DNA from: Actinomycetes bacterium
Lineage (GTDB): Bacteria > Actinomycetota > Acidimicrobiia > Acidimicrobiales > SZUA-35
Assembly (NCBI GenBank): GCA_024227975.1
Contig: JAAETV010000098.1
Coordinates: 1-22,950, forward strand
Length of the DNA stretch: 22,950 nt
Direction of reading: 5' to 3'
The notes beneath the pieces were generated by a model. The model did not search any database and was not told where the DNA came from. It saw only the letters and a program-made list of their open reading frames with translations. How positions within the stretch are numbered: position 1 is the first letter of the stretch; every line of letters begins with the position of its first letter. Shown in pieces: positions 3,114 to 22,950 of the stretch. The translations under genes and the position numbers were made by a program.

Positions 3114-3121
3114 GGGCTTCG

Positions 3122-4697: not shown

Positions 4698-5686
4698 TCC
4701 TCCATGTAATTGGCCGTCTCGCTCCGTATTCGGTGCCGCTGCAGGTCGCATCGGCCATGAGTGATGCTGGCATCGATGTTCGAGTTGCTGGCCGGCACCG
4801 GCCGGAAGACGCCAATCCGCTGGCTATTGGCTTCACCCGAGCCATGCTCGGGATTGTCAAGGGTCAGTTCCGAGCCGTGCACTGTCATCACGGGCGCCAG
4901 GCCCTGCCCCTGGCTCTGCTGGCTCGGGCCAGGGGCCTTCCGGTCGTTGCGACCCAGCATTCCCTGCTCTCCACCGGCCTGACCTGGGCAAAGGTGTCTG
5001 CCATGGCACGCTTGTCGTTGTCGACGTCGATCGTCTGCAACTCGCAGGCGACGATGGACTCTCTGCCCGACCGCTACCATCGACGGTGCCGGGTCGTGTA
5101 CAACGCCGTCGATCTGATACCCGGGAGTCATGAGGCGGGCCCATCCCGTGATGTGGACATCGTCTATGTCGGCCGCCTGGAACCGATCAAGCAGCTACAT
5201 CGTTTGCTCGATGTGGTCGGTCACGTTGTCGAGGCGCTGGGCACGGTTCGGGTCGTCATTGCCGGCGATGGCTCGCAAGCGGCGGAGCTCCTCCAGCGGG
5301 TAGACGACGAGCTGAGCGGCGTCGTCTGTCTGGCCGGTACGCTTGATCGGTCGGGTGTGCACGAGTTGCTGGCCAGGTCCAGGATGTTCGTATCAATGTC
5401 GAGTAGTGAAGGTTTCGGCAACGCCGTGGTCGAAGCAATGTCGGCCGGCTGCGCCGTGAGGGTGCTCGACGTCGGAGCGATGGCCGAGGTCGTGCCCCCC
5501 CAGTCCCTGCTGGATGCCGACTCCAGCTCGGGTGAGGTGGCGAAGTCGATAGTTGCCGCCCTCCAACAACCCGGAGGGGTCACCGACGAGGGCAGCACAA
5601 ACCGGTCCTCCGCCTCGAGCTTCTCGATAGAACGGCATCTAGCAAGACTGGCGTCGGTCTACGGCCATGACCTCATCGACGGCTGA
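4694..5686 (+). CDS. Glycosyltransferase family 4-like protein
   Basis: This 330-residue GT-B enzyme starts directly with its first beta strand, ILHVIGRLAPYSVPLQ. It contains VHCHHGRQALPLALLARARG and VVYNAVDL in the linker. The donor-site signatures are DIVYVGRLEPIKQLHRLLD, VRVVIAGDGS and SSSEGFGNAVVEAMSAG, which holds an intact E-x7-E pair. It should transfer a sugar from a nucleotide donor to the growing lipid-linked oligosaccharide in the cytoplasm. The TTG start is supported by a well-spaced AAGGAG and the TTGA overlap with the gene before. The end overlaps the next gene by 20 bases. The N-terminal acceptor domain is short for the family, but both halves are complete. Confidence 0.88.
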   Translation: MILHVIGRLAPYSVPLQVASAMSDAGIDVRVAGRHRPEDANPLAIGFTRAMLGIVKGQFRAVHCHHGRQALPLALLARARGLPVVATQHSLLSTGLTWAKVSAMARLSLSTSIVCNSQATMDSLPDRYHRRCRVVYNAVDLIPGSHEAGPSRDVDIVYVGRLEPIKQLHRLLDVVGHVVEALGTVRVVIAGDGSQAAELLQRVDDELSGVVCLAGTLDRSGVHELLARSRMFVSMSSSEGFGNAVVEAMSAGCAVRVLDVGAMAEVVPPQSLLDADSSSGEVAKSIVAALQQPGGVTDEGSTNRSSASSFSIERHLARLASVYGHDLIDG

Positions 5687-6917
5687 GCTCGGCCGAGCGC
5701 CCTTCACCCTGAGGGGCAAGTTACTCTTCGCCCTCCTGCTCACCTCCTTCGCCACCCGTGTTGCTTCTGAGGTGCTCGTGCTCGACCTCCCGTTGGAAGA
5801 CTTGGCCAACTATGTGATGGCCGGTCTAGCGGCCACCGCTATCGGGCACGTAGCGATGTCCAACTCGACGCTGAAGCTCCTCGATCTCCACCCAATCCGA
5901 CATCAGTTGCCGCTGATTTCACTTCTCGGCATCATGGCCGCCCAGCTCCTCTCGAGTGCGGTGTTCAATCGCCAAGGCCTCCCCGCGGCCGCGTTCGATC
6001 TTCTCGTGTTGCTCGCCGTCATCGCCGTCGTCTCCACCATCGACGATGCAACCGATGTCTACCGTCCGATGTTCATCGGGGTTGGGCTGGCGCAATTGAC
6101 GATCTGGGCCTTGTTCCTCCAAGGATTCAGCCTGCAGACAGCAAATGGTCGGCTGGCCGGCCCATTCACCCACCCAACCGGGTTGGCCCAGCTTGGCTTC
6201 GTAGGCCTGTGCCTTCGCGTCCTGTATCCGACCGCCGATCGGGGAGAGGCCGGCAATGTCAGCCGAGTCCTCGACGCGGCCCTGATCTTCAGCTCAGTGT
6301 TGCTGATCGTCGCCTCTTCCTCACGGGCCTACCTGTTGGCGGCTCTCGTGCTAACGGTCGCTGACGTCATTCGGCGGGGTAAGAGCATCAGGGTGATCCG
6401 CATCAGCTTGGCTGTGTTCATGGTCGGCACCCTTGCTCTATCAGTCGGACCGGTGGCGGCGCGCCTGGAAACGTTGGATGTGACGAACTCCGACACTCGT
6501 CAAGCCTTGTGGTCGGTGGCGGTGCCCTCGGCGCTGCGGAATCTACCAGAGGGTGTTGGGTACCGGATGTCAGGGGCAGTGCTTCAGCGGAACCTGGTGG
6601 TGGCCGAGATTCCTGATCATCTGGAGTCGGTTCACAACCTGTTCATCCAGGCCACTCTGGAGCTCGGGCTGGTTGGGATGATCTGCTACTTCGGATGGCT
6701 GGTCTTGCCTCTCCTGTCTCGCTGGTCAGCAGAAGCGGTCGTGATCGGGGGGTTGGTGGTTACTCAGCTCCTCAGCTCGTCGCTGAGCATCCCCGGCAGC
6801 CCAATACGGGTCCTGGCTGCTGTGGCCACGGTGGTCGCGGTCCGGCGCGTAGCCGGAACAATGGGTGATCACGCCGACGGCTTGCTGAAGGTCGCTGACG
6901 AGCAGGACGCACGGTGA
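5667..6917 (+). CDS. O-antigen polymerase/ligase-like membrane protein (Wzy-type)
   Basis: The 416-residue product is very hydrophobic, with roughly ten membrane segments by eye. A large extracytoplasmic loop lies between about residues 260 and 320. Two features match the O-antigen ligase/polymerase family: the SSSRAYLLAALV segment with its conserved arginine, and SVHNLFIQATLELGLVGM, in which H-N-x-F is followed by a glycine-rich membrane helix. Family members join lipid-linked repeat units into chains at the outer face of the membrane, the step expected between the glycosyltransferases and the chain-length regulator of this operon. The ATG has no clear ribosome site and lies 20 bases inside the preceding gene, so coupled translation is likely. 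Polymerase versus ligase cannot be separated by sequence alone. Confidence 0.78.
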   Translation: MTSSTAELGRAPFTLRGKLLFALLLTSFATRVASEVLVLDLPLEDLANYVMAGLAATAIGHVAMSNSTLKLLDLHPIRHQLPLISLLGIMAAQLLSSAVFNRQGLPAAAFDLLVLLAVIAVVSTIDDATDVYRPMFIGVGLAQLTIWALFLQGFSLQTANGRLAGPFTHPTGLAQLGFVGLCLRVLYPTADRGEAGNVSRVLDAALIFSSVLLIVASSSRAYLLAALVLTVADVIRRGKSIRVIRISLAVFMVGTLALSVGPVAARLETLDVTNSDTRQALWSVAVPSALRNLPEGVGYRMSGAVLQRNLVVAEIPDHLESVHNLFIQATLELGLVGMICYFGWLVLPLLSRWSAEAVVIGGLVVTQLLSSSLSIPGSPIRVLAAVATVVAVRRVAGTMGDHADGLLKVADEQDAR

Positions 6918-7897
6918 GCTTCGTATTCATTGGCGGCTGTGAGCGGTCTGGGACGACATTGCTCGGCGCTGAGATGCACAGGGCTGGCGTCGGCCTCGCT
7001 CTTCCCGAGGCGGTGTTCCTGGTCAAGGCACTCGTCCACTCCTCGGGAGTCAGTTCCTTCGTCGATGCCATCGAGCGTGATTGGCGCCTGACTACATGGC
7101 CGACCCCGTCCGAGAGAATCGCTACTGCCCTTGACCAAGCGAGGAGTGAGCCAACCATTGCATCAGCTTTTCGCTCATTCGCCATCTGTGCTCTCGGCCA
7201 CAGAGACACGGGCCAGCCTCTCATCGACAGCACACCGTGGTCGCTCCGCTACGCCGGTTTGATCAAAGAAGCGTTCCCCGATGCCCGTTTCGTGCACATC
7301 GTGCGCGACGGGCGAGCGGTGCTGGCCAGTGTGCGACGTCTCGACTGGGGACCGTCGACACCACTCGCCGCCTCGACCTGGTGGGAGTCGGCCCTGGTTC
7401 CCGGACTCTTGGCCGACGCGGCCAACGAATGCGTGACCACCCGCTATGAGGACCTGGTGATCGATCCGGATGCTGTCGTCGCCCGGATAGCGGAGGGAAT
7501 CGGTCTAGCTCGGAGCGGGGGCTGGAGCGTCCAAGGGACCGAGAGCGAGACCAATGGGCCCGCCAACATCGCCGTCGGCTCGTATACCGAGAGCCAGCAC
7601 GCCTTGCTGGCAGAGCGACCGGTTCGATCGCGTATCTCGGCCTGGAAGGAAGAGCTGTCAGCCCGTGACATCAGTCTGTTCGAGGCTCGATCCGGCCAGA
7701 CGCTCGGGTGGCTCGGCTACGAGCTCATCACCTCGCCGCGCCCGATCTCGGGTGCGGATCGGCTCGAGGACGAGGTCAAGGCGTTCGCGGTGGCAACCTT
7801 GGGCGGTAGCGCTCGGAGGGCGGTCCGTCGGGCCGCACACGCTCGTCGCTCTCGTCGCTTTGGTCGGGGCAGAGGGCTATCGGAGTCCGAGCTCTAG
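6914..7897 (+). CDS. Sulfotransferase family protein (third of the locus)
   Basis: The 327-residue product has a clear PAPS 5'-phosphosulfate loop, FIGGCERSGTTLLG (residues 5-18), and a full 3'-phosphate signature, FVHIVRDGRAVLASVRR, with Arg131-Asp132-Gly133. RYEDLV follows, as in bacterial Sulfotransfer_1/3 proteins. The C-terminal tail is rich in arginine and serine (RRAVRRAAHARRSRR), which could contact an anionic glycan or membrane. The GTG start overlaps the polymerase stop as GTGA. Of the four sulfotransferase-like genes here, this one and the one at 3122 have the most canonical PAPS motifs. The acceptor is unknown; the exopolysaccharide repeat unit is the simplest choice given the operon. 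Confidence 0.87.
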   Translation: MSFVFIGGCERSGTTLLGAEMHRAGVGLALPEAVFLVKALVHSSGVSSFVDAIERDWRLTTWPTPSERIATALDQARSEPTIASAFRSFAICALGHRDTGQPLIDSTPWSLRYAGLIKEAFPDARFVHIVRDGRAVLASVRRLDWGPSTPLAASTWWESALVPGLLADAANECVTTRYEDLVIDPDAVVARIAEGIGLARSGGWSVQGTESETNGPANIAVGSYTESQHALLAERPVRSRISAWKEELSARDISLFEARSGQTLGWLGYELITSPRPISGADRLEDEVKAFAVATLGGSARRAVRRAAHARRSRRFGRGRGLSESEL

Positions 7898-7899
7898 CC

Positions 7900-9195
7900 G
7901 TGGGCGGGATCACACTGACACGACGAGTGGTCAGGAACCTGCTCCTTCGGAGCCCTCAACTGGTCTTCCTCACCGTTGCCGTTGTGGCCGCCGCTCGTCA
8001 GTTCGAAGATGCCACGGCCATCCGATTCGCCTTCATCGTGCTCATCTCGACGCCGGTCTTCAGCTTGCTCGAATTGGGCCTGCGCGAGATCAGATTCGCC
8101 AGCACTGCGACATTCGATACCTTCCTCCGGGTTCGTGGTTCATCATCCGTGCTTGGCGTGGCGGTGTGTGCCGCCATTGCTGCCACCACCGAAGGCATCG
8201 GCACCGCGGGAGCGGCATGGCTGGTCATCAAGGCAGCTGATCACCTGGCTGACATCTGCGGAGCCGAGTCACTCCATCGTCGGGAGCTCCGGCGATTCGA
8301 GGTCCGTGAGGGCTTTCGGGGGGGCGTCAACCTTGTGATCCTGGTTGGCGCAGTGGCGGTCGGCCAGCTCGCCGACGGTCTGGTCCTTGCCGCCATCGCC
8401 AGCGTGCTGTTCGTGTTCGTAGTCCAGATCCGACGGCTCCGAATCGGGAGTCAGAGTGATCCCACCTCATTGTCGGGATCTTCGTTGTCGGGATCTTCGT
8501 TGTCGGGATCTTCGTTGCCGGACCCGATGCTGACCCTTGTCAGATCCGGCCTCTTCCTGGCTGCTGGAGCGGGGGTGATGGCGGGTCGGTCCCTTTTCAT
8601 ACGTGGATCCATCACGTCGATCGCAGTTGGCGACGAGCTAGTCCTCTACGCCCTCCTCGTCACGGTGTTTCAAGCGTTCAACGTGATATCCACAACGGGT
8701 GCTCAACTGTCACTACCGAGGTTGAGGGAGGCTGCACCAGGCGAGCGAGCGAACATGACCGTAAGGGTGGCGATCGGACTGGTCGGGCCGTTGGTGGTGC
8801 TTGGGGCTGCCTTTGTCGTCTTCGCCGGGGAGTTGGCGACGGTTGTCGGAGTTCAGGAATCGGCCCGTCGTGTCCAATGGCTCGCAGGTTCACTGGTCGT
8901 AGCTCGAACCGCCGGTGCCATCGGCACCTTCGTGCGTTCGGGGCTGGTTGTAGCCGGCTCACTGCGGAGCCGGCTCGCCATCCCGACGGCGGCGACCATT
9001 TCGTCGATCGGGATGATTCTGTTGTTGTCGACCGATTCGGTGGTCAAGGTCAGTTGGCTCGACGCCTTCGGCCGTGCTGTTGGTCTTGCGGTAGCTCTGG
9101 CGTGGATGTGGTGGACCTCACGAACCGCGAGGGCCACCGGCCCCGGTGCGATCGGCCCCGAGCGTGGTTCGGGTACGCTCGATCCGGTCAGGTAG
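7900..9195 (+). CDS. Polytopic membrane protein, probable polysaccharide flippase (Wzx/MATE-like)
   Basis: The 431-residue product has many hydrophobic segments arranged in two halves, separated by a hydrophilic stretch around residues 180-212. The size, topology and place in the operon (next to the polymerase and the chain-length regulator) fit a lipid-linked oligosaccharide flippase. I do not see a diagnostic signature, so the call leans on context. The central loop carries three exact copies of a 15-base repeat encoding LSGSS (residues 191-205). The GTG start is two bases after the previous stop, with GGAG 14 bases upstream, which is weak. A 13-base gap with a good ribosome site follows. 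Without this gene the locus would have no visible flippase. Confidence 0.6.
   Translation: MGGITLTRRVVRNLLLRSPQLVFLTVAVVAAARQFEDATAIRFAFIVLISTPVFSLLELGLREIRFASTATFDTFLRVRGSSSVLGVAVCAAIAATTEGIGTAGAAWLVIKAADHLADICGAESLHRRELRRFEVREGFRGGVNLVILVGAVAVGQLADGLVLAAIASVLFVFVVQIRRLRIGSQSDPTSLSGSSLSGSSLSGSSLPDPMLTLVRSGLFLAAGAGVMAGRSLFIRGSITSIAVGDELVLYALLVTVFQAFNVISTTGAQLSLPRLREAAPGERANMTVRVAIGLVGPLVVLGAAFVVFAGELATVVGVQESARRVQWLAGSLVVARTAGAIGTFVRSGLVVAGSLRSRLAIPTAATISSIGMILLLSTDSVVKVSWLDAFGRAVGLAVALAWMWWTSRTARATGPGAIGPERGSGTLDPVR
8470..8514 (+). repeat. 15-base tandem repeat, three exact copies, in frame
   Basis: The unit TTGTCGGGATCTTCG occurs three times without mismatch (8470-8484, 8485-8499, 8500-8514). 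A partial fourth copy, TTGCCGGA, follows. Each unit is five codons (LSGSS), so gain or loss of copies would change the loop length without shifting the frame. It lies in the hydrophilic centre of the flippase-like gene. Confidence 0.95.
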
Positions 9196-9208
9196 GGAAA
9201 GGTCCGTC

Positions 9209-10951
9209 ATGCAGAATCCGAGGCAAGGGGAGGAACTCGACCTACTGGACTACCTGGGTATTCTGCGGCGCCGCTTCATCTGGTTCCTCACACCGTTGGT
9301 ACTACTTTCGGCTGCTTCGGTCTGGTATACACAGCGCCAGCCGGTCACCTACCGGGCGACCGCGAGCGTACTGATCGACGAATCGGCGGCACAGGAAGCG
9401 GTCGAGACCCGTCTCACCGGTACCAAGGTGAGAGATCGCGAGTTGGCGAACGAGATCAACCTGGCCGACAGCGACCCAGCCCGAGAGCTCGTTCGATCGC
9501 GTCTGGGGCTCCGTCCCGACGCCGCCCTGCCCAAAGGGGCGATTCTGGCCTCCATCGACGCTGATGTCCTGAACTTCCGCTTCGAGGGATCGACGGCTGA
9601 CGAGGCCGCCCTGATTGCTACCACCTGGGCTGAGGCCTATGTGAGCCTCAAGCAGGAGGCGGCCGGTCGTAGTATTGACCGAGCCACAGAGCGACTCCGT
9701 TCCCAGCTGGACGAGCTTCGTCTCGAGCGCGATGAGGTCCGCTCGGACCTGAACGCCCTCGAGGATCGAAGGGCTACCGCCGATACCGATGAAGACCGAG
9801 TCAGCCTGCAAGCCAAGATTGACCGCGAGGCCAGCGCTATCTCAGGCGAGCTCAATCTCGTGGATGCGCAGATAAAAGCCAATGTCCAGAGCATCACCCA
9901 GCTCCGGTTGAATGGTGATCTGACGTCGGGAGGGACCGCGTGGCTGTTCCAGACCGCATTGCCGCCAGCGGGTGCTCTCAACGCGTCGGTTTGGCGGAAT
10001 CTGTCGGTTGGTGTGGCCATCGGTGCGTTGCTCGGCGTGGTTCTAGCCATGGTCAGGCACCAGTTGGACCGGTCGGTCAACACTGTTGATGACATCAATC
10101 GACTCGGTCTGGTGTCGTTGGGGGCAATACCGAAATCACGCGGTCCGAAGGGTGAATCGCTCGCTCAGGTCAGCCTTTCCGATCCGATGAGCCCGATCGC
10201 TGATGCCTACCAGAAGGTTCGTTCCGCTCTCCAGTTCGTTGCTCTGGGCAACGATGCTCGATCGATCCTGGTCACGAGTCCGACTGAGGGCAACGGGAAG
10301 ACCACTACAGCGGTGAATCTGGCTCTGGCCTTTTCAGGCGTCGACCGGAAGGTTGTTCTGGTCGACGCAGATTTTCGGCGGCCGAGGATCCACACCGTTT
10401 TTGGTACGAACCTCGTTCCCGGCGTCTCTGATGCGCTTGTACACGACATACCCATTGCGTCCATCGCCGTTGCCAGTACCGCTGCCGCCCGGAGCTCTCT
10501 GGCGGCGTTACCGGCGGGCACCGAGCCGCCCAACCCAGCCACGTTTCTGGCCTCACCACTGTTCACTCGTTTCCTCGCTGAAGTGGAGGCCCAGTCGGAC
10601 ATGATGGTCTTCGATTCGCCACCGGTGCTCCCGGTTGCTGATGCCACTTCGCTATGTCCCCACTCCGACGGGGTGGTCATGGTGGTCGAGGCTGGCCACA
10701 CCAGTGGTGAGGAACTGCTCGATGCGATTGACGTGATCGACAGAGCAGGGGGAATCGTTCTTGGCGTCGTCCTCACCAAGGCGAAAGTGAGCGCAAAGGC
10801 CTACCGCTATCAATACGAGAGCAGTGAGGATGTCGGGAGAAGCCAGAGGCGTCATGGCCCCGAAGTTCCGTCATCGTCAAACGGAACCTCCCTCCGGCCG
10901 ATGACAACGGATCCCGAAGGGGAAGCAACGGCTAGCGCATTCGAGCGTTGA
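9209..10951 (+). CDS. Fused Wzz/BY-kinase: polysaccharide chain-length regulator and tyrosine autokinase
   Basis: The 580-residue product joins a Wzz-type membrane domain to a bacterial tyrosine kinase. The N-terminus (ELDLLDYLGILRRRFIWFL) leads into the first membrane helix. A periplasmic region with a coiled coil (about residues 155-230) follows, then a second helix near 263-283. The kinase has Walker A TSPTEGNGKTTT (Lys364), Walker A' VVLVDADFRRPR (about 383-394) and Walker B MMVFDSPP (Asp469). The tail has three close tyrosines (532, 534, 536), a short version of the autophosphorylation cluster. Such proteins control chain length and export of capsules and exopolysaccharides through cycles of phosphorylation. 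I chose ATG 9209 because AAAGG lies six bases upstream; a longer frame from 9146 adds only shadow sequence. Walker A has Asn where many family members have Glu. Confidence 0.93.
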   Translation: MQNPRQGEELDLLDYLGILRRRFIWFLTPLVLLSAASVWYTQRQPVTYRATASVLIDESAAQEAVETRLTGTKVRDRELANEINLADSDPARELVRSRLGLRPDAALPKGAILASIDADVLNFRFEGSTADEAALIATTWAEAYVSLKQEAAGRSIDRATERLRSQLDELRLERDEVRSDLNALEDRRATADTDEDRVSLQAKIDREASAISGELNLVDAQIKANVQSITQLRLNGDLTSGGTAWLFQTALPPAGALNASVWRNLSVGVAIGALLGVVLAMVRHQLDRSVNTVDDINRLGLVSLGAIPKSRGPKGESLAQVSLSDPMSPIADAYQKVRSALQFVALGNDARSILVTSPTEGNGKTTTAVNLALAFSGVDRKVVLVDADFRRPRIHTVFGTNLVPGVSDALVHDIPIASIAVASTAAARSSLAALPAGTEPPNPATFLASPLFTRFLAEVEAQSDMMVFDSPPVLPVADATSLCPHSDGVVMVVEAGHTSGEELLDAIDVIDRAGGIVLGVVLTKAKVSAKAYRYQYESSEDVGRSQRRHGPEVPSSSNGTSLRPMTTDPEGEATASAFER

Positions 10952-12047: not shown

Positions 12048-15000
12048 ATGAGAACGAGTCGAGCAGGGACAGTCCGTCGGGTCCGGAGGAAGCGCATCAA
12101 GCCGAGCCTCATGTTGGCCCTTCTGGCGTCCTCCTTGGTTGCGAGCTTGCTGACTGTCACCCCATTCTCCGGGGCGATCGATCTGGCGGAGCCAGTTGCG
12201 GCTCAGGCGGGAGTGTCGACGTACTGCGAGTCGATCGAGTCCGGGCACCCTCTGGGGCCTGATTCGGCAGAGAACCAGGGCGGCGATCCTGTCAACATCA
12301 CCGTCGAGGTCGTTGATCGCGAGAACGGCACCAACCTTGGTGGAACAGCCGATGGCTTCTCCTACATGGTGAACCTCGACAACACCGCCGTTGGCAGCGA
12401 CCCGGAGGCTGATCGGCACCCGTCGGTGAACCCGATGGCGTCCAATGCTCCAACCGTGGCTGCAGGTGACGAGGTCTACCCGACCTTCACCGTCCCCAAC
12501 GGGTGTCGCTACCTGATCTCGGTACGGGCCGCTGGCTACAAGCTGTGGGGCCAACACGTCGTTCTCGAGGGTGGTGCCGGCGCTGACACTTCCGATCGCA
12601 CGGTAACCATCGAGCTGCTGGCCGACGCCCAGGACACGGGTACTCCGGCCGAGTGGCGCAACAACCCCGACGGGTCTGGTTTCCTGGAAATCCCCCGTGA
12701 CGGGCTCCCCCTTTCCGATCTCGAGGTGTGGGTCTTCGAAGACGTCGGCCCGACCAATGGTCAACCCGATGTCCCCCTGGACAATGGACTTGGTGGCTTT
12801 CAGATCACGATCGTGGACGCCGCCGGTGAGACCATCGTCGATTTCGGTGGCTCCCCCCTCTGTCAGGACATCGGCAACGACTGCATCACGGACTCCAGCG
12901 GGAGCCTACGCCTCTCCGGGCTCCCGTTCGGTCGCTACGACATCCACGCCATTCCTCCCGACGGCACCGATTGGGTCCAGACGACCACCTTCGAAGGAAC
13001 CCAGGCCGTCGATGCCTGGCTGATCGAAGGTGACGAGGGCAGTGGGGCCATCGGCGAGTTCCTCGTCGAGCCCAATGTCCAGACGGCGTTCTGGTTCGGC
13101 TTCGTCGAACACAACCCGGCCTCCCTGCCGACGACTTGCCCGACCGCCGATTGCGGAACGATCAGCGGCCGCGCCGTCAACTTCATGGTGACCCCACCGT
13201 TCGAGGACTCGGTGCCCCAGCCCAACGAGCCGATCGACATTCCCTACGTCGCCCTGAACGCGACTGGTGGCGGTGACACGGTCGAGCAGGTCGTGCGGGG
13301 CAACGCCAACGGCGAGTTCACCTTCGAAAACGTGCCTCCCGGTGAGTACATGCTCTCCATATGGGACAAGCCCCTCGACTACATCACCAAGTTCTACACC
13401 GTCAGCGTTCCCCCGAATAGTGACGTGGAGATGGGTGACCTGGGTGTGTGGCGCTGGTTCGGCTGGTTCTCCGGCTACATCTATCTCGACAACGGCGTCG
13501 CGGCCGACGGGACGGTGCTCGACAGCGGGAACACCCTGTCGCAGATGAACCTCAACGGCCTGCCCGACGACACCTTCGCCGGCAATGGCCTCCGCGACTG
13601 CTACGGCGGGGCGGCTGCTGATCCGCACGATATTCCTACCTGTGAAGCCGGCCTACCGATGGAAGAGGTGCTGCTCAAGTACCGTGATGGCAGCGTCTAC
13701 AAGACCGCGATCACCGACGGCAACGGCTACTACGAGTTCCCTGAGGTCAGAGGCCCACTCGGCCGCTACGTAGTGCCCGAGGTCGGCTTCGCTCGCCGCG
13801 ACCGAACCGGCCATTCCATCCGAGAGGAGTTCAACTTCGACGAGGGTGGCGACCCGCCATACGAGCCCTACAAGTCGCTGCCGATTCCCGGTGAAAAGGG
13901 CGGCAACCTCCTGCTGGCCGCCATCATCTGGGAAGGTCATCGCACCTCGGTCGACTGGGGCAAGGCCAACTACGATCTGACCGACCCCGAACAGAACGGT
14001 GGCATCGCCGGTGCCGTGCTGTATGGCACGACCCGGAACGAGCTGGAGCCCCAGCTGGCCGGCCAGGAGGGCTACGAGCCTGGCATCCCCAACGTGCCAT
14101 TGCGCCTGTGGGGCCCTGGTGCCGACGGAATACCGAACACCGACCTTGACGTGCTCATGGTCGAGCTCACAACCGATGCCTGGGAGCATCCTGGTGACGG
14201 CGACGGACCCCAGCCCCAGACAGCCTGGACCAACGGTCCTGACACTCCCTGCAACCTGATCGACAACCTGGGCAACCCGGTTGACGATCCAAACGGCATC
14301 GCCGCCGGCTGCATGGAGATCCCGCAGAACGGCAATGAGACCCAAGACGGGGCCTGGGACGGCGGCTTCGCTTTCGAGGACGACTGCTCGGCCGCCATCA
14401 CCACCCAGCAGGGCGCGGTTCTCCGTGGCGATCCGGCCGACCCTGGTAGCAACTACAACGCAGCGCCGGGCACCCTCTATGACGAGGGCACCCTGGGAGA
14501 CTGCACCCACATCGTGTCTGGTGACTATGCGGCCCAGGTGCTGGTGCCGGAGTTCTACCAGATCCTCAAGGAAGAGGACGTCAATACCGACGAGGGCGTC
14601 GAGCTGGTGCCTCAGATCCCACCGACAGGCTGTGTCGGCCTCGACCACGAGGTGCCCGATCCCCGGAGCCCCTCCTACGGTGTAGCAGAGCCCCTTTGCG
14701 ACCTGAAGGTCATTCATCTCCAACCGGGCCAGAATGCGGCGGTCGAGTTCACCCTGTTCACCGAGTGTCCGGCGCCTGAAGGGCCCACCGGTGGTGGCTG
14801 TGATCCCGACGATCCATACACCTCGCCCGGAGGTCGGACGTCGCCCGACATCACCCAGCGTTGGAGCACCGACTACGACGGGCCCGACGACGAGTCGGTT
14901 CCGCTCCCGGCCCGGTTCTTCGGCTTGATGGAGAACGATGTCGCCATCCAGAACGACCCGAACTCGCTGGTCTATGGCGAGAAGTTCGGTCTGGCTGGTA

Positions 15001-18000
15001 TTCCCATCGGTATCTACGACTTCACCGGTGAGAAGCTGACCACCATCTACACCGACGAGAACGGCTACTACGAGGCCCTCGTCCCCTCCACCTACACGGC
15101 CCTGTGCCCGACACCGTCTGGCGTCTGCCCGGGCATGTACTGGTTCATCCTCAACGATCCGGGCGATCCCGCCGCCCCGGACGAGGGCTACAACCCGAAC
15201 TATCTGGTCGAGACCCTCAACTTCGAGACGTTCCCGGGCAAGATGCGCCATACCGACACCCCACTCGATCCGACGACTGCCATCCAGTGCGTCATCGAGC
15301 AGGGCACGCCGGAGTTGCTCCACATCTCCGATACCCACAAGTTCCCTGGTGGCACTCTCGACGTGACCATCACGGGCAACGCGTTCGAGAATGGGCCAAC
15401 CGGTGCGCCGAACGTCCACCTGGTCCCACCGGGTGGTGGCGCAATCATCCCACTGTCGGTCGTGACCTGGACCCCGTCTGATGTCACCGGCCCGACACCG
15501 GTGTTCGAGGACGTGGTCACGGTGACCGTCCCCGATCTCCCCGTCGGGCGGTACCAGATGGAGGTCGAGGCCGACGGGTTCACCTCGGCCAACGCCATAA
15601 CCTTCCACGTACTGGCGGGGGGGACGACGGTGATCCCGGTCATCCCGACCACTGACCTCGATCTGGGGATTGTCCAGCCCATCCAGGCTGCCATCAACTC
15701 GGCTAGCCCTGGTGATTTCATCGATGTGGCCCCCGGTACCTACCGGGAGAATCTGGTCATCGGTGTCGACGGAATCGTCATCCAGGGCCACGGCCCAGGT
15801 GGCGCGGTCGGCAACACGATCCCCGAGGCCGGTGATGATGCGGCGTTCCCGCCGTCCGACCCACCGTTCTCCACCATCACCGGGTCAAACATCGACTCCC
15901 GTTTCTTCTTCGGGAGCGGTCCGGCCCAGACCTTGTGGGAGAGCACGGTGCCTGGTGCCTACAGCGGGGCTCCCGCTGGTGCGGCTGCCACTCTGTTCGG
16001 GGCCAACGACGTCATGATCGACGGCATGGGCATCGGCTTCAGCCGGGGCCTTGGCGCCGGCGGCGTCTGGGCCTACCGCGACTCGAGCGGGATGAAGGTG
16101 AGCAACAACATCATCGCCCATAACACCGGTCGTCACGGCGGTGGCGTGGTAGTTGGCGCCCCTGGGGCCGAAGGCGGCCTGGCCGACAACGGCAATGATG
16201 GTGCCGCGATCGAGAACAATCGCATCATCCAGAACGGTGGTACGTTCTTCGCCGGCGCCGTCGGCCTGTTCGCTGGGTCTGATGGCTACCGGATTGCTCA
16301 CAACGACATTTGTGGCAACTTCTCCGTGGAGTACGGGGCCGGTATCTCCCACTTCGGGACGAGCCCCGGTGGCCGTATCACCCAGAACCACATCTACTAC
16401 AACGAAGCCTTCGACGAGGGTGGCGGCATCATGATCGCCGGTGAGTCCCGAACCGGTCCCACCCACACCCCGTCGGGCGATGTGATGATCGACAAGAACG
16501 AGATCCTGTTCAACTTGTCGAACGACGACGGTGGCGGCATCCGGTTGCTGGCACCGCGCGATTCTCGGATCGAGATCGTCAACAACTTCATCAACCACAA
16601 TGTGGCCGGTGACATGGGTGGTGGTCTGGCGCTCGATGATGCATCGGACGTGTTCATCGTGAACAACACCATCGTGGAGAACGCCTCGACCTCGACCTCT
16701 GAGGACGCCGAGAAAGCCGTCGCCCTCTCCAGTTGTGCCCCGGTCTTCACCGACCAGATCACATGCCCGAGAGGCGCCGGGTTGACTACCACGCCCCACA
16801 GCACGAACTTCTCCCCGGCTGACGGGTCGACATTCTCCGATCCAGTGCTGGTCAACAACATCTTCTGGCGGAACACGTCCTACTACTGGGGCCTGCTGCC
16901 TCCAGAGCTGGGCGCCCCCGAAGGTCAGTTCGGCCTGGTGCCGGCGGGTGGACCTCCCGGTGGTGGGCAGAGCGGCTACTGGGATATGGAGGTCGTCTTC
17001 GGCGGCGCCGCGGGCTGCTTCGACCCAACCTACTCATTCCTGTCAGTGGCTAGTGGGCCCTACGACCTGTGTGACTATTCGGCTGCGACCGGAAACGTCG
17101 TCGGTGTCGATCCGCTGGTCAACACCGACTGGGCGGTCAAGGAGACCAACCTGGTCATCCTCTGTGCTCCGGGTATCCTCGGCGATGTCATCCAGTGCCG
17201 GATCTCTCGCGGTGAGGACGGTCCGCTGGGGATCGGTGGGACGGTCTTCCTGGACCTGATCGACATGCATCTCATGCCGGTCTCACCGGCCATCGACGCC
17301 GGGATCGACCCATCCACACTCATCAACCCGATAACGGTCGATGATGACTTCGACGTCGAGGCCCGTCCCATGGGGGCGACGTGGGACATAGGCGCCGACG
17401 AGGTGCTGGCCGACGATCCGGATGTCTACATCTCCACCGACTGTGGGTCCTACGGCAACGCCGCCAGCTGTGGGGATCCGGCCTTGGGAGACGGCCGCTC
17501 CGATGTGCGCATCATGCGGGTCAACGGGACCTCACTGGAGATCGTCTTCGAGGGTTGGGAGGTCATGACCAAGACTGGCAACCAGAGTCGTCGGGACCCG
17601 GCCGAGGCTCAGATCGATGGCTTCGCCTTCCTGAGTGAGACCGAGATCCTGGTCTCGTTCAACCGGCCAATGCATTACTCGGTCTTTGGTATGGCCCCAC
17701 CACCTGATGTGAACATCGACGATGCTGACATCCTGCTGTTCACCGCAACCAGCCTTGGCGCCGGTACAGCTACAACGGGAACCTGGAGTTTCTACTTCGA
17801 CGCATCTGACGTCGGGATGGATGCAGGGTCCGAAGACGTCGACGCCATCGCTCTGGCTCCCGGCGGCGGCCTGCTTCTGTCAACGGTTGGCGGGGCATCA
17901 GTCGGAGGTGGTCAGACCTACGACGACTCGGATGTGTTCAAGTTCGAGTTCACCACCGGCCCCGGCGAGGTGACCGACGGCAACTTCGAAGCGTTCTTCG

Positions 18001-18302
18001 ACGGCAGCCAGTCGGAGGGTCCGAATGGATCCGACCTGGCGACCAACGCCGAGGACATCAACGGGTTCAGCACTGATCCGCTGTCAGCCGATCTGCTGCA
18101 CCTGACGACGCCGGGCAATATCAGCGTCGCCGAAGCGGTCGATCCCTACATCGCCGCCGACCACGACGTGACCACCTGCGTCAATGAGGCGGGCCCCCAG
18201 GTCTGCGACGACTGGGTGGTGCTGTTCGACGGAAACACCGTTCCAGGGCTTGGACAGTTCGACATCAAGGGCCTCGAGGTGTACGTGGGGGGGCTGGGGT
18301 GA
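12048..18302 (+). CDS. Giant secreted multidomain protein: Sdr/CnaB-like domains, IPT-like stretch, beta-helix and C-terminal repeat module
   Basis: This 2,084-residue protein starts with a basic N-terminus and a signal peptide (cleavage likely after about residue 54, AAQA). The first half holds repeated beta-sandwich units of the carboxypeptidase-regulatory/Sdr type, for example ANGEFTFENVPPGEYMLSIW, TDGNGYYEFPEV (near 550) and IYTDENGYYEALVP (near 1010). An IPT/TIG-like stretch lies near 1090-1190. A right-handed beta-helix starts with IQAAINSASPGDFIDVAPGT (1212) and has many N-N-x-I-x-x-N and GGG turns, ending near WDIGADEV (about 1780). Residues 1793-2084 form a module found again in the last gene of the window. 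No LPXTG, PEP-CTERM or membrane anchor is seen. GGGAGG (12033-12038) precedes the ATG by nine bases. It looks like an extracellular scaffold or matrix protein for the oxidases encoded next; no enzyme activity is visible. Confidence 0.85.
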   Translation: MRTSRAGTVRRVRRKRIKPSLMLALLASSLVASLLTVTPFSGAIDLAEPVAAQAGVSTYCESIESGHPLGPDSAENQGGDPVNITVEVVDRENGTNLGGTADGFSYMVNLDNTAVGSDPEADRHPSVNPMASNAPTVAAGDEVYPTFTVPNGCRYLISVRAAGYKLWGQHVVLEGGAGADTSDRTVTIELLADAQDTGTPAEWRNNPDGSGFLEIPRDGLPLSDLEVWVFEDVGPTNGQPDVPLDNGLGGFQITIVDAAGETIVDFGGSPLCQDIGNDCITDSSGSLRLSGLPFGRYDIHAIPPDGTDWVQTTTFEGTQAVDAWLIEGDEGSGAIGEFLVEPNVQTAFWFGFVEHNPASLPTTCPTADCGTISGRAVNFMVTPPFEDSVPQPNEPIDIPYVALNATGGGDTVEQVVRGNANGEFTFENVPPGEYMLSIWDKPLDYITKFYTVSVPPNSDVEMGDLGVWRWFGWFSGYIYLDNGVAADGTVLDSGNTLSQMNLNGLPDDTFAGNGLRDCYGGAAADPHDIPTCEAGLPMEEVLLKYRDGSVYKTAITDGNGYYEFPEVRGPLGRYVVPEVGFARRDRTGHSIREEFNFDEGGDPPYEPYKSLPIPGEKGGNLLLAAIIWEGHRTSVDWGKANYDLTDPEQNGGIAGAVLYGTTRNELEPQLAGQEGYEPGIPNVPLRLWGPGADGIPNTDLDVLMVELTTDAWEHPGDGDGPQPQTAWTNGPDTPCNLIDNLGNPVDDPNGIAAGCMEIPQNGNETQDGAWDGGFAFEDDCSAAITTQQGAVLRGDPADPGSNYNAAPGTLYDEGTLGDCTHIVSGDYAAQVLVPEFYQILKEEDVNTDEGVELVPQIPPTGCVGLDHEVPDPRSPSYGVAEPLCDLKVIHLQPGQNAAVEFTLFTECPAPEGPTGGGCDPDDPYTSPGGRTSPDITQRWSTDYDGPDDESVPLPARFFGLMENDVAIQNDPNSLVYGEKFGLAGIPIGIYDFTGEKLTTIYTDENGYYEALVPSTYTALCPTPSGVCPGMYWFILNDPGDPAAPDEGYNPNYLVETLNFETFPGKMRHTDTPLDPTTAIQCVIEQGTPELLHISDTHKFPGGTLDVTITGNAFENGPTGAPNVHLVPPGGGAIIPLSVVTWTPSDVTGPTPVFEDVVTVTVPDLPVGRYQMEVEADGFTSANAITFHVLAGGTTVIPVIPTTDLDLGIVQPIQAAINSASPGDFIDVAPGTYRENLVIGVDGIVIQGHGPGGAVGNTIPEAGDDAAFPPSDPPFSTITGSNIDSRFFFGSGPAQTLWESTVPGAYSGAPAGAAATLFGANDVMIDGMGIGFSRGLGAGGVWAYRDSSGMKVSNNIIAHNTGRHGGGVVVGAPGAEGGLADNGNDGAAIENNRIIQNGGTFFAGAVGLFAGSDGYRIAHNDICGNFSVEYGAGISHFGTSPGGRITQNHIYYNEAFDEGGGIMIAGESRTGPTHTPSGDVMIDKNEILFNLSNDDGGGIRLLAPRDSRIEIVNNFINHNVAGDMGGGLALDDASDVFIVNNTIVENASTSTSEDAEKAVALSSCAPVFTDQITCPRGAGLTTTPHSTNFSPADGSTFSDPVLVNNIFWRNTSYYWGLLPPELGAPEGQFGLVPAGGPPGGGQSGYWDMEVVFGGAAGCFDPTYSFLSVASGPYDLCDYSAATGNVVGVDPLVNTDWAVKETNLVILCAPGILGDVIQCRISRGEDGPLGIGGTVFLDLIDMHLMPVSPAIDAGIDPSTLINPITVDDDFDVEARPMGATWDIGADEVLADDPDVYISTDCGSYGNAASCGDPALGDGRSDVRIMRVNGTSLEIVFEGWEVMTKTGNQSRRDPAEAQIDGFAFLSETEILVSFNRPMHYSVFGMAPPPDVNIDDADILLFTATSLGAGTATTGTWSFYFDASDVGMDAGSEDVDAIALAPGGGLLLSTVGGASVGGGQTYDDSDVFKFEFTTGPGEVTDGNFEAFFDGSQSEGPNGSDLATNAEDINGFSTDPLSADLLHLTTPGNISVAEAVDPYIAADHDVTTCVNEAGPQVCDDWVVLFDGNTVPGLGQFDIKGLEVYVGGLG
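17424..18299 (+). repeat. Duplicated C-terminal module, copy 1 (in the giant protein)
   Basis: This roughly 290-residue segment starts VYISTDCGSYG and ends the protein (KGLEVYVGGLG). It matches the segment at 22098-22950 over its whole visible length, with roughly four in five residues the same in the best-aligned part and clear similarity at the DNA level. Within the module a shorter pattern repeats about three times: D-x-D-hydrophobic-x-F, then W/F-x-x-Y-F-D-x-S-D-V, then E-D-V-x-x-I-x-L, then L-L-L-S-T. That suggests a blade-like beta repeat. Four cysteines are kept in both copies. Confidence 0.9.
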
Positions 18303-18346: not shown

Positions 18347-19729
18347 ATGAGCGATCAGCCGAGACGAGTCTCCCGGCGTCAAGCGCTACAGCTGAGCATG
18401 GGCGGCGTCTTGGCCGGTGGCGGGATTATCGCCCAGCGACGCCTAGGCGGAGGAGGGGGCAGCGTTGAGACTGTCAGCCCTGCGGCACCAGGTCCACTCC
18501 CGCTGATTGGAGGAGCGGCCGAGAGCGTGCGGTCGATCGCAACCGACGGCTACATGTCATACCCCGGCCGCCGGGTCCGCCAGCCAACGCTTGCCTGGGA
18601 TGGCACCGATGGCTACGGCTACGACTCGGACCGGCTAGATGCGGGCGACGGGGTCTACAGCTTCGGCTTCCGCACCATCTATGACCATGAGGTCGATGGT
18701 CCCAGTGCCTTCGATGCCCCGATCGGCGAGCTGGTCGGCAAGTTCAAGGGTCTGGTCCACCACCCATCATCGATCCTCGGCTTCTCGAAGAACGCTGACG
18801 TGTTCATCAATATGTCGAACCTCGGCTTCGAGGTCCGGCCCGACCTCGACGACGCCCACACCCTTCACTGGCACGGCTTCCGCCAAGCAGTGACGGTTTG
18901 GGACGGTGTGCCCGAGGTCTCGGTTTCGGTACCGCCGACTCGAGACTTTCCGTACTACTTCGGTGCCCTCGACGAGGGCACCTACATGTACCACTGCCAC
19001 TTCGAGGACGTCGAGCACGTCCAGATGGGCATGGATGGCATCCTCTACGTGAACCCGGTAGCTGGCGCTGACCACCTCTATGAAGATGCGCCGACCCAGT
19101 TCGATCGGCAGTACGGGCTGCTCCTCAACGAGGTGGACCTGAACCCCCATGACTTGCTGGCTTCGGTGCAGGAGTTCACCTGGTCGGACTACGACGCTCA
19201 CTACTTCGTGATCAACGGACGCTCCTACCCCGACACGGTGCGGGGCTCGGGAGATCCTGGGCTCGAAACGAGCCCTTGGTATGACAGCAATTCGACGCTC
19301 CCCTTGCAACCGGTGTCATCGTTGATCCAGGCAAACCAAGGGGACCGGGTAGCGATCCGGTTGGCCAATCTCGGGTACTACTACCATGAGATGCAGCTGG
19401 CCGGCATCCCCATAACGGTCTACGGCAAGGATGCTGAGCGGCTCTGGGGGCCAGGTGGCGATCTGGCCTATGTCACCAACACTCTGGACTGTTCACCGGG
19501 GGAGAGCCGGGACGCTATCTTCGTCGCTCCTGCCCACTCCACCAACGTCCCTGATGATCCACCGGACATATACCTATTCAAGAACCGGCACGTCGACCGG
19601 CTCGTCAACGGCCCGGACCCAGCCAACCTGGCGCCCAACGGGCTAGGAGGCATGGTCACCGAAGTCCATGTCTACCCGGCCGGGACCCTGCCTGCTCAGA
19701 CCGAGCCCAACGAGATCTTTCCAGTCTGA
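18347..19729 (+). CDS. Two-domain multicopper-oxidase-like protein with domain-1 copper ligands only
   Basis: The 460-residue product has a Tat-type signal (RRVSRRQALQLSMGGVLAGGG, residues 6-26), so it is likely exported folded with its copper. Domain 1 has H171-T-L-H174-W-H176-G and H216-C217-H218 followed by H224 and M229. These are a full type-1 site (H171, C217, H224, M229) plus four trinuclear ligands. In domain 2 the two matching sites read YYYHEMQLAG (near 347) and FKNRHVDRLVN (near 411-421), so the expected histidine pairs are gone. Alone it could not build a normal trinuclear cluster. I chose ATG 18347 (GGAAGGG six bases upstream, short n-region); a GTG at 18299 overlapping the previous stop is also possible. 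The next gene has the opposite half of the ligand set. Confidence 0.85.
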   Translation: MSDQPRRVSRRQALQLSMGGVLAGGGIIAQRRLGGGGGSVETVSPAAPGPLPLIGGAAESVRSIATDGYMSYPGRRVRQPTLAWDGTDGYGYDSDRLDAGDGVYSFGFRTIYDHEVDGPSAFDAPIGELVGKFKGLVHHPSSILGFSKNADVFINMSNLGFEVRPDLDDAHTLHWHGFRQAVTVWDGVPEVSVSVPPTRDFPYYFGALDEGTYMYHCHFEDVEHVQMGMDGILYVNPVAGADHLYEDAPTQFDRQYGLLLNEVDLNPHDLLASVQEFTWSDYDAHYFVINGRSYPDTVRGSGDPGLETSPWYDSNSTLPLQPVSSLIQANQGDRVAIRLANLGYYYHEMQLAGIPITVYGKDAERLWGPGGDLAYVTNTLDCSPGESRDAIFVAPAHSTNVPDDPPDIYLFKNRHVDRLVNGPDPANLAPNGLGGMVTEVHVYPAGTLPAQTEPNEIFPV

Positions 19730-19764
19730 TGGGGATTCGAGTGAGAAACCGAACGGAGATCAAG

Positions 19765-21123
19765 ATGAAGAAGCGAGGACGGGTCGGTCTCGGGCTGCTC
19801 GGAACCGTTGGGCTCCTCGCCGGGGCTCTGGCCATCATCACGACGAGCCCCGTCAGTGCCAGCGCTCCCGGCACCAACATCGTGTGCTCGGCTGGTGGGG
19901 TAAACGGGGCGGCAGATGTCGTGACCATCAACCTGGCACCTACCGAGGGCTATATGTCGACACCCGACGGCAACAGCCTCTACATGTGGAGTTATGGGGA
20001 GGAGTCGGAGCCAGGGGCCGGCGACGCGACGTTCCAGACGCCAGCACCGACGATCTGTGTCGACGAGGGCGATACGGTGACGGTGAACCTGACCGTGCCC
20101 GGCGGCTGGCCGACCATTCCAACCGGATCAGGTGTTGACACGCCGGTTTCGATCATCTTCCCCGGCCAGACCGTAACGACATCAGGCGGATCGCCTGGAT
20201 TCTTGACGGCCGAAGCTTCGGGAGGGACAGTCAGCTACACCTTCACTCCCACGGCCGGAACCTATCTCTACGAGGGCGGCACCAACTCGGCGCTGCACGT
20301 CGCCATGGGCATGTACGGCAGTGTGGTCGTCTATCCGAAAGACGGCACGACCGCCTACGGGCCAGGCACGGAATACGACACCGACCGTGAGTTCCTCTTG
20401 ATGCTCCACAGCGTTGACCCTGGAGAGCATCAGACCATGGAGTACTGGACCAGCGCGGACCCGTTCTCTTATGTCCCAGAGCCATACGAGAAGGTTGGAT
20501 TCACTGGCCTTCTCGACCCACCGGGAACGATTCGTCACGAGCGGTACTGGACGATCAATGGCCGCTCCAATCCGGATACCTTGTGGCCGAACAACACACC
20601 TTTGATGCCGAACCAGCCTTACGGATCCGTCATCCACGTCGAGGCTCAGGATCCGGCAGATCCCGGCTTGCCGGCCCTGGTCCGATACACCAACGCCAGC
20701 CTCGACAACCATCCCTTCCACCCCCACGGCAACTCCCTGAAACTCATCGCCCAGGATGGTCAGACCCTGGGTCTTGGTGATGGGCTCGAGATATTCACGT
20801 CGACGGTCGGCTCGGGGCAGACCTACGACCTGATGGTCGAATGGCTCGATGTCAACGGCTTCGACTCGACATTCAATCCGATACCGGTCACCCTCCCGGG
20901 GCTCAACAACCTGGTGTTCAAAGATGACTCCAGTACCTACTCGGGCAGCCCCTATCTGGGAGAGAAGGGGGAGCTTCCCGCTCCGGTGACCCAGTTCAAC
21001 GCTTGCGGCGAGTACTACTTCCCGTGGCATAGCCACGCACTGTGGGAGATACAGAACTTCGACGAAGGGTTCGGGGGCATGCTCACGCTCTGGCGAGTCG
21101 ATCCAATTGGAGGTTGCCAGTGA
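19765..21123 (+). CDS. Two-domain multicopper-oxidase-like protein with domain-2 copper ligands only
   Basis: The 452-residue product has a Sec-type signal (MKKRGRVGLGLLGTVGLLAG, cleavage likely after residue 34). Domain 2 has the classic H316-P-F-H319-P-H321-G and, near the end, H422-S-H424 followed by a GGM segment. These are the trinuclear ligands contributed by the last domain of a multicopper oxidase. A serine stands where laccases have the type-1 cysteine. In domain 1 the HCH position reads LYEGGTNSALHVAMGM (Glu170-Gly-Gly), and no HWHG is present, so that half has no ligands. The fold pattern around each lost site is still recognisable. GGAG (19755-19758) supports the ATG at 19765 over 19729. 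It is most simply read as the partner subunit of the preceding protein. Confidence 0.83.
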   Translation: MKKRGRVGLGLLGTVGLLAGALAIITTSPVSASAPGTNIVCSAGGVNGAADVVTINLAPTEGYMSTPDGNSLYMWSYGEESEPGAGDATFQTPAPTICVDEGDTVTVNLTVPGGWPTIPTGSGVDTPVSIIFPGQTVTTSGGSPGFLTAEASGGTVSYTFTPTAGTYLYEGGTNSALHVAMGMYGSVVVYPKDGTTAYGPGTEYDTDREFLLMLHSVDPGEHQTMEYWTSADPFSYVPEPYEKVGFTGLLDPPGTIRHERYWTINGRSNPDTLWPNNTPLMPNQPYGSVIHVEAQDPADPGLPALVRYTNASLDNHPFHPHGNSLKLIAQDGQTLGLGDGLEIFTSTVGSGQTYDLMVEWLDVNGFDSTFNPIPVTLPGLNNLVFKDDSSTYSGSPYLGEKGELPAPVTQFNACGEYYFPWHSHALWEIQNFDEGFGGMLTLWRVDPIGGCQ

Positions 21124-21167: not shown

Positions 21168-22950
21168 ATGTTCACCAAGAAGCTCCGGGCCGCCTTGGCC
21201 TTGACAGTATTGGCCGCACTGACCGTTCCCTTGGCCTCGCCGGCATCGGCCCAGGTGTCGATCGATCTATGCGCAACCACCGGCTCGGTGACGATGCCAG
21301 ACGCGGCCGTTGTACCGGTCTGGAGCTATGTCATCGGCGACTGCACGACGACCGGCAACGCGGTCCTCCCCGGGGAGGAGATCCGGCTCACGGAGGGCAA
21401 CAGCCTTTCCATCGACTTGTATGTCGACGGCGCGGGCATCGGCGAGCCGGTCTCATTGATTGTGCCGACCCTGCCCGGTATGCCGGACGTGAGCGGGACG
21501 ATGACCGGGCCGATCAACTACTCATGGGCGGCCGGCGACTTGACTCCGGGAACGCACCTCTACGAGAGCGGGGTCAACCCGGGAGTTCAGGTCCCGATGG
21601 GGCTGAGCGGGGCAATTGTTGTCGAATCGGCGACGCCGAGCGCTGATGTGGACCAGGTTCTGGTCCTGTCCGAGCTCGATGTCGATATGAACGCCAGCCC
21701 CGGCACGTTCAACCGGAATGACTACGCCCCCGAGTACTTCCTGATCAACGGCAAGGCCGCGCCGCAGGTGCCCGCTATCGCTGCCGTCCCTGGACAAACG
21801 GTCCTGTTGCGGTACGTGAACGTGGGTTCCCGGCTTCACTCGATGGCCGTGCTCGGAGCTCGTCAGACGGTTGTGGCCAGGGAAGGACGCCCAGCGCCGC
21901 TTCCGAGAAGCGTCGTCGCTGAGCTGGTTGCACCCGGTCACACCATTGATGCCGAGATCGAGGTGACTGCTGATCATGCCGAGAGCCGACTGATCGTCTA
22001 CAACCGCAACGGCTTCCTGAACAACAATATTGATGGCGTGTCGACGGGCGGGATGCAACTAGGCATCCACGTCGGCCCGGTTCCAGATCCACCACCGGTT
22101 TACATCTCCCTCGACTGTGGCAGCTACGGCGGTGCTGCGACCTGTGGGGATCCGGCGCTAGGAGATGGCCGCTCCGATCTGAGGATATTCCGAGTGGACG
22201 GCACCTCACTGGTTGTGGTGTTCGATGGCTGGGAAGTCATGACCAAGACCGGTAACCAGAAGCGCCGGGACCCGGCGGAAGCCCAGATCGACGGGTTCGC
22301 CTTCCTGAGCCACAGCGAGATCCTGGTCTCGTTCAACCGGCCGATGCACTACTCGGTATTCGGGATGGCAGCGCCCCCGGACGTGAACATCGACGATAAT
22401 GACGTCCTGCTGTTCACCGCCACATCACTTGGCGCGGGCGCGGCGACGACCGGTGACTGGAGCTACTACTTCGATGGCTCCGATGTCGAGTTCGGTGACG
22501 GTCCAGAGGACGTCAACGGGATCGCTCTCACCTCCACGGGAGAACTACTGTTGTCGACTCGAGCGCCTGGCAGCGCTCAGGGTGTGTCGTTCGACGATTC
22601 CGACGTGGTCAGGTTTGTCTTCGATGGCAGCCCAGGCGAGGCGACAGCGGGGAGCTTCTACCCCTACTTCGATGGCAGCACCTCCGAAGGGACCAACGGA
22701 TCAGACCTGGCCAAGAACAGCGAGGATCTCAACGGCATCAGCATCGATCCGTACTCGGACCTCCTCCACTTCACGACCACCGGAAATGTCAGTGTGGCCG
22801 AGGCAGTGGATCCCTATATAGCCGGGGACCATGACGTGTCGACTTGCATCGATGATCCGGGCGGCGAGGTCTGCGACGACTGGGCGGTCCTCCTCGACGG
22901 GAACCCGCTCATCATCGGGCAGTATGACATCCAGGGGGTCGAGGTCTACC
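21168..22950 (+). CDS. Ligand-free multicopper-oxidase-like paralogue fused to the shared C-terminal module (3' end outside the window)
   Basis: The open frame runs 594 codons to the right edge without a stop. It has a Sec signal (cleavage likely after Ala28). The next 270 or so residues follow the two-domain layout of the gene before. VVPVWSY matches SLYMWSY, THLYESGVNPGVQVPMG matches the domain-1 site, VGSRLHSMAVLG (His224) matches HPFHPHG, and VYNRNGFLNNN then STGGM matches the HSH-GGM site. None of the four copper sites keeps its histidine pair. From residue 311 (VYISLDCGSYG) it is the same module that ends the giant protein. GGAGG (21159-21163) precedes the ATG by four bases. It may be a structural subunit linking the oxidase to the scaffold; catalytic activity is unlikely. 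Confidence 0.82.
   Translation, partial: MFTKKLRAALALTVLAALTVPLASPASAQVSIDLCATTGSVTMPDAAVVPVWSYVIGDCTTTGNAVLPGEEIRLTEGNSLSIDLYVDGAGIGEPVSLIVPTLPGMPDVSGTMTGPINYSWAAGDLTPGTHLYESGVNPGVQVPMGLSGAIVVESATPSADVDQVLVLSELDVDMNASPGTFNRNDYAPEYFLINGKAAPQVPAIAAVPGQTVLLRYVNVGSRLHSMAVLGARQTVVAREGRPAPLPRSVVAELVAPGHTIDAEIEVTADHAESRLIVYNRNGFLNNNIDGVSTGGMQLGIHVGPVPDPPPVYISLDCGSYGGAATCGDPALGDGRSDLRIFRVDGTSLVVVFDGWEVMTKTGNQKRRDPAEAQIDGFAFLSHSEILVSFNRPMHYSVFGMAAPPDVNIDDNDVLLFTATSLGAGAATTGDWSYYFDGSDVEFGDGPEDVNGIALTSTGELLLSTRAPGSAQGVSFDDSDVVRFVFDGSPGEATAGSFYPYFDGSTSEGTNGSDLAKNSEDLNGISIDPYSDLLHFTTTGNVSVAEAVDPYIAGDHDVSTCIDDPGGEVCDDWAVLLDGNPLIIGQYDIQGVEVY
22098..22950 (+). repeat. Duplicated C-terminal module, copy 2 (truncated by the window edge)
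   Basis: This segment matches 17424-18299 almost from end to end: GDPALGDGRSD, GWEVMTKTGNQ, RRDPAEAQIDGFAFLS, EILVSFNRPMHYSVFGM and DVNIDD are shared exactly. The last visible residues (IQGVEVY) match IKGLEVYV, so only a few residues of the module should lie beyond the window, unless the protein continues further. Confidence 0.9.

Follow-up and report, generated by a model that had tools for sequence, protein, structure and literature searches.

The window, by which we mean the whole 22,950-nt stretch of DNA that was analysed, carries a four-gene unit on its forward strand: a gene for a giant scaffold-like protein is followed by three genes, here called A, B and C, for two-domain proteins. 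The features are listed below, with the residues of A counted from position 18299 and those of B from 19729 (TNC, trinuclear cluster):

12048..18302, forward strand: giant, scaffold-like protein of 2084 aa, encoded by the gene that opens the unit, with Pfam matches SdrD_B, CarboxypepD_reg, SpaA and Beta_helix
17424..18299, forward strand: C-terminal module of the giant protein, the same module as in C
18347..19729 (ORF from 18299), forward strand: A, two-domain multicopper-oxidase subunit with a live domain 1 and a dead domain 2; Tat-type signal SRRQAL near the N-terminus
18857..19033, forward strand: ligand block of A (H187, H190, H192, H232, C233, H234, H240 and M245), by analogy type-1 copper ligands plus four TNC histidines; kept in 81 of 81 rows
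19729..21123, forward strand: B, two-domain subunit with a dead domain 1 and a live domain 2
20719..21036, forward strand: ligand block of B (H331, H333, H434 and H436), by analogy the other four TNC histidines; kept in 78 of 78 rows
21168..22949, forward strand, running off the window end: C, ligandless two-domain paralogue (about 21168-22097; 62 bits with profile A2) plus a C-terminal module
22098..22949, forward strand: C-terminal module of C, which shares 71% identity over 286 aa with the C-terminal end of the giant protein

A and B overlap by a single base, shared between the stop codon of A and the earliest start open to B. Pfam matches Cu-oxidase_3 in both A and B and returns no match for the window copy of C, so that gene-by-gene annotation would recognise A as an oxidase and may give C no name. 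The nearest solved protein is 2zwn for A and a copper nitrite reductase for B; copper nitrite reductases are matched in sequence by A as well. When a profile of the whole set is compared with the PDB, the blue copper oxidase of N. europaea (3g5w) and a metagenome laccase (2zwn) come out at the top, and the same two are the best fold relatives of the B and C parts; from their domain-1 motifs, we take both to be type C. Upstream of the unit, at 850-10951, lies what looks like an exopolysaccharide cluster as judged by eye from the translations, with ORFs resembling sugar-nucleotide epimerases, glycosyltransferases, sulfotransferases, an O-antigen ligase and chain-length/kinase proteins.

Further loci were collected by an A profile search of contigs from one genome per species; 80 of the 137 confirmed loci were analysed, which together with the window gives 81 loci spread over Chloroflexota, Actinomycetota and Bacillota. 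The three genes lie in the order A-B-C, on the same strand and as separate ORFs, in 74 of the 81 (in L047 and L054 as judged by match position), while the other seven (L018, L019, L021, L031, L063, L066 and L070) stop at a contig edge, with the start of C showing at the edge in three of them. The C gene of L050 is split over two frames, so that 75 C rows represent 74 loci, and a contig end truncates some of the C sequences; G669 (L093), where a frame-broken A runs into C without B, perhaps through an assembly fault, was excluded from the counts. Protein searches with E-values up to 0.001 returned 2330 matches for A and 3003 for B, other multicopper oxidases included. Among the best 120 of the 2330 relatives of A, HxHG and HCH are present in all 120 and H[ST]H in one, and among the best 120 of the 3003 relatives of B, H[ST]H is present in 118 and HC in one. 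Several values for the length of the longest contig are common to the two lists of 120, an early sign that A and B go together.

In multicopper oxidases, electrons enter at the type-1 copper and pass over a Cys-His bridge to the TNC, where oxygen is reduced. Two-domain members of the family form trimers in which the TNC ligands come from two protomers, type C being the class with the type-1 copper in the N-terminal domain (PMC13151041, in excerpt); homotrimers with the active site between monomers are likewise described in the available portion of PMC3192119. Domain 1 of A contains the motifs H187-T-L-H190-W-H192-G and H232-C-H234-F-E-D-V-E-H240-V-Q-M-G-M245. If the assignment of residues to coppers follows known oxidases, as we assume by analogy for both A and B, then H187, C233, H240 and M245 would be the type-1 ligands and H190, H192, H232 and H234 would serve the TNC; all eight columns are invariant in the 81 rows of A, although the search patterns contained several of A's own ligands and this invariance is thus partly a product of selection. 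The corresponding TNC positions in domain 2 of A are occupied by Q366, A368, N429 and H431, position 431 being His in just three of the 81 rows, the window included, and an HxH at either domain-2 site is found in none.

The pattern of B is the reverse. Its domain 2 contains H328-P-F-H331-P-H333-G and H434-S-H436, with H331, H333, H434 and H436 invariant in the 78 B rows, and here no selection was at work, as neither B nor C was selected by ligand. The domain-1 ligand positions of B hold no His or Cys except H190, a position that is Gln in 77 of the 78 rows, and HCH or HxHG is found in domain 1 of none. Position 328, which would face the type-1 His of A, is more variable (His in 43 rows, Tyr in 34 and Thr in one). 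In C, none of 74 rows has HxH, HC or CH at any of the four sites, and six have such a string elsewhere. All three proteins thus have two cupredoxin domains per chain as type-C oxidases do, type-1 ligands in domain 1 are present in A (81/81) and absent from B and C, and no chain of the three unites both halves of the TNC ligands; taken together, A, B and C hold one complete ligand set. The preliminary description of this DNA had assigned to A and B the same reading frames, had placed the ligand motifs in domain 1 of A and, as HPFHPHG and HSH, in domain 2 of B, and had called the two sets complementary, all of which is borne out across the rows: a full set within either protein was looked for and found in none of the 81 A or 78 B rows. 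With invariant columns over this many rows and the opposite sets absent, the division of ligands is more than chance.

The same description had tied its reading to A and B occurring together, and they do. Among 201 Chloroflexota genomes, B is strong in five (at least 369 bits, the next match reaching 141) and A is found in the same five (at least 401 bits), the trio sharing a contig in each; among 299 Bacillota genomes, B (at least 372 bits) and A (at least 298 bits) are found in the same 13, with the trio on one contig in 12 and a contig break between A and B in G566. A search of 296 Actinomycetota genomes with the B profile located B in three: A lies beside B in G301 and G414, and A- and C-like matches lie beside B in G006 and in a second copy in G414. 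Depending on the search, up to eight, six or five first-look candidates were scored per genome. Because the loci are related, with two pairs under the same genome or species name, and because several genomes in the co-occurrence search also supplied loci, these counts are not independent trials.

A single A-type gene without B was encountered, in G544 (L092, 4617-6692; 245 bits), where it is accompanied by C; the 11 kb fetched contain no giant gene. In this protein HxHG reads YWEG and HCH reads HCY, so that H190, H192 and H234 are lost and H187, H232, C233, H240 and M245 are retained. Additionally, 13 Bacillota genomes, one of which (G706) has the trio elsewhere, carry a solitary, more distant A-like gene (163-199 bits), and no match to B or C is found in the 5-7 kb fetched around it. 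In 12 of the 13 solitary relatives the complete ligand set is present in one chain (HxxHxHG and HCH...EH in domain 1, HxHG and HNH in domain 2), and the thirteenth, at L098 (1816-3237), lacks most of the TNC ligands while its type-1 set is intact.

A tree was built from 65 two-domain units, taken from 17 chosen loci, from 12 of the solitary proteins, those with the whole set per chain, and from a protein of L091. In it, A, B, C and the solitary proteins are each confined to one side of a branch (SH-aLRT 99, 97, 94 and 100, respectively). Within each of A, B and C, Bacillota are set apart from Chloroflexota plus Actinomycetota, and this repeated split of the phyla indicates either that the triplication is older than the split or that the three genes were transmitted together. 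The inter-locus distance matrices of the three proteins correlate at 0.92, 0.87 and 0.90 over 74 loci, the largest value in 500 permutations being 0.15.

The Chloroflexota gene at L091 (575-2866, reverse strand) led to a family of 22 proteins with four oxidase domains (641-764 aa; P0241-P0262). HxxHxHG and HCH...EH in domain 1, together with HLHG and HDH in domain 4, are present in all 22, and domain 3 has neither set in any of them. Domain 2 has lost its set in ten, the L091 protein included, and keeps the four TNC histidines in 12 (the HxH at the second site is present in 12, and the first site in the same 12 by eye or in nine by a stricter pattern). The two halves of the L091 protein are sisters in the tree, with 44% identity and SH-aLRT 99. 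The family reads as one that lost the domain-3 set first and is now losing that of domain 2, a series leading up to a division like that of A and B by way of a separate duplication; since domain 2 retains its set in 12 of the 22, it cannot be counted as a clean second case of such a division. A candidate natural A-B fusion, P0006 (758 aa), was also set aside, since what comes after A in it looks, by eye, like a translation out of frame.

Structure models were predicted for two loci. At L043, A, B and C are in one frame and were folded as a read-through chain (pLDDT 76.9, pTM 0.72), and A and B of L057 were likewise folded as a single chain (pLDDT 78.8, pTM 0.77), so chain order is favoured in both models. 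With Foldseek, the ABC model of L043 fails to match ceruloplasmin in chain order (TM 0.23) but matches Thermus laccase with a TM of 0.71 of the target over 749 columns. The tool gives no ranges, and the overlay indirectly suggests domain 1 of A at domain 2 of B, or domain 1 of B at domain 2 of C, the ring being the same either way. The AB model of L057 matches ceruloplasmin in chain order with a TM of 0.58 of the model and factor VIII with 0.64 of the target; here the overlay is read as domain 2 of A at domain 1 of B, which would bring both dead faces together in the opposite neighbour order to that of L043. The two models, as read, contradict each other: that of L043 speaks for the proposed meeting of the ligand halves at one interface and that of L057 against it. 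Loops next to the ligands have pLDDT below 50 (76-103 in part and 655-705 in ABC; 77-99 in part and 652-694 in AB), and the 50 fold-search (VIA) rows listed are mostly single two-domain units.

The giant gene is conserved as well. A homologue of the giant gene lies upstream of A in all 74 loci with more than 2.5 kb of upstream sequence, four of which supplied the queries; it matches SdrD_B, CarboxypepD_reg and beta-helix and, where uncut, is about 1,500 to 2,550 aa long (2084 in the window). Downstream, some loci have CopC and CopD genes (by Pfam for L004 and by phmmer in others). In the window the same C-terminal module in the giant protein and in C hints at a common anchor, through which C may tether the oxidase to the giant scaffold; across the 80 further loci the module has just four matching ORFs, all of them weak (26-55 bits). 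The N-termini, called by a simple rule and not by a signal-peptide predictor, differ between phyla: the Tat motif of A is present in 47 of 49 Actinomycetota, 17 of 17 Chloroflexota and the window, and in none of 14 Bacillota, while a hydrophobic N-terminus is absent from 13 of 14 A and 12 of 13 B proteins of Bacillota. By eye, the window B has a signal-like N-terminus if translation starts at 19765 (MKKRGRVG...). Bacillota A and B (L043, L057, L062, L077 and others) seem to be made without signal peptides, although in other phyla relatives of A carry the Tat motif and those of B a hydrophobic N-terminus; applied to C of Bacillota, the rule, a crude one, calls a hydrophobic stretch in 8 of 14 rows. 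A Coat_F gene lies near the unit in the Bacillota loci L058 and L077, the Bacillota genera concerned are presumably mostly spore formers, and we would guess at a role in the spore coat there.

We consider it likely that an ABC heterotrimer with one active site emerged when a homotrimeric type-C oxidase underwent triplication and the copies came to share out its ligands. A, B and C would be paralogues arising from triplication of a type-C two-domain multicopper oxidase, and after duplication the copies would have lost complementary ligand sets, leaving just one of the three ABC interfaces active: that of domain 1 of A, with the type-1 copper and four histidines, against domain 2 of B, with the other four. 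Since the unit has three paralogues and not two, a closed trimer can be made of A, B and C, in which C would close the ring and supply two dead faces, and may link the oxidase to the giant protein. Electrons would be taken up at the type-1 copper of A and delivered over the Cys-His bridge to the TNC at the face with domain 2 of B, with oxygen reduced there; Mn(II), Fe(II) and phenols are candidate substrates. From the sequences we infer an obligate hetero-oligomer in a 1:1:1 ratio, its oxidase activity, tethering and substrate being inferred in the same way. The preliminary description had proposed an enzyme of two gene products, which stands as far as the ligands are split over A and B and falls short in that the ligandless third paralogue and the conserved giant gene were missed.

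It is also conceivable, though we think it unlikely, that A and B form the enzyme by themselves, as an AB dimer or A2B2, and that C is a separate tether or a pseudo-enzyme outside the catalytic complex. The ten four-domain proteins that lack the domain-2 set point this way, as their A-like and B-like halves hold one ligand set with no third unit, and so does the uneven length of the C ORF, which is about 320 aa in several Bacillota and more than 1,000 in some others. Far less probable is that no TNC is shared at all, A being a type-1 copper electron-transfer protein or a homotrimer akin to nitrite reductase, and the histidines of B binding copper to some other end. Such a reading accords with the sequence matches of both proteins to copper nitrite reductases and with the persistence of the A-like proteins of G544 and L098 with type-1 ligands only, but all eight TNC histidines are kept wherever A and B co-occur, and just one of A's four remains in the sole case that lacks B. 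That A and B are two broken copies of an ordinary oxidase would fit the lack of half of the canonical set in each chain but is highly improbable, as it is contradicted by the same halves being kept over three phyla with frames open in 80 loci and the window.

Taking the ABC heterotrimer with its single active site a step further, we regard as somewhat better than an even bet a broader reading: the pseudo-threefold heterotrimer, with one live and two dead interfaces, would be a living step between homotrimeric two-domain and six-domain oxidases; with the giant scaffold, it would constitute a four-gene surface oxidase (in Bacillota possibly of the spore), and the four-domain family would display the same kind of loss under way within one chain. 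In three phyla, triplication and loss seem to have taken place while each unit kept a gene of its own. The set can be compared with complete relatives encoded by one gene, with a relic that lacks B and with a four-domain family divided in part, which makes duplication, interface specialisation and fusion each testable in the laboratory. Full-text searches of an open-access library turned up no description of a two-domain oxidase with divided ligands or of this gene set.

How does the set compare with known systems? The resemblance seen to copper nitrite reductase is one of sequence and fold. Like the set, 3g5w and 2zwn have two cupredoxin domains, the type-1 copper in domain 1 and TNC ligands in both domains; unlike it, they have the full complement of ligands within every chain and are known to form homotrimers with three active sites, whereas here the ligands are shared out between A and B, with none in C. 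Six-domain oxidases such as ceruloplasmin are derived, according to the part of PMC3600357 available, by triplication of a two-domain protein and loss of all but one TNC, and the bacterial members have the TNC between domains 2 and 3 and the type-1 copper in domain 2. In common with ceruloplasmin and MnxG (9bxa), which have three two-domain units and one TNC per molecule (PMC3600357, in excerpt), the present set has one TNC per three two-domain units, by ligand count only; unlike these single-chain proteins, it keeps its six cupredoxin domains on separate ORFs in all 74 loci that have all three genes, and the type-1 copper would sit in the domain-1 partner, as opposed to domain 2 of the bacterial six-domain enzymes. 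The idea that A-B-C is simply MnxG cut in three is not upheld, given the published position of the type-1 copper in domain 2 (same excerpt), MnxG having been compared by its description only. The manganese oxidase MnxEFG of Bacillus sp. PL-12 is, like the present set, a hetero-oligomeric multicopper oxidase from adjacent genes; there, as far as the excerpted text of PMC5622069 goes, only MnxG is an oxidase and MnxE and MnxF resemble no characterised protein, whereas here all three subunits are oxidase paralogues.
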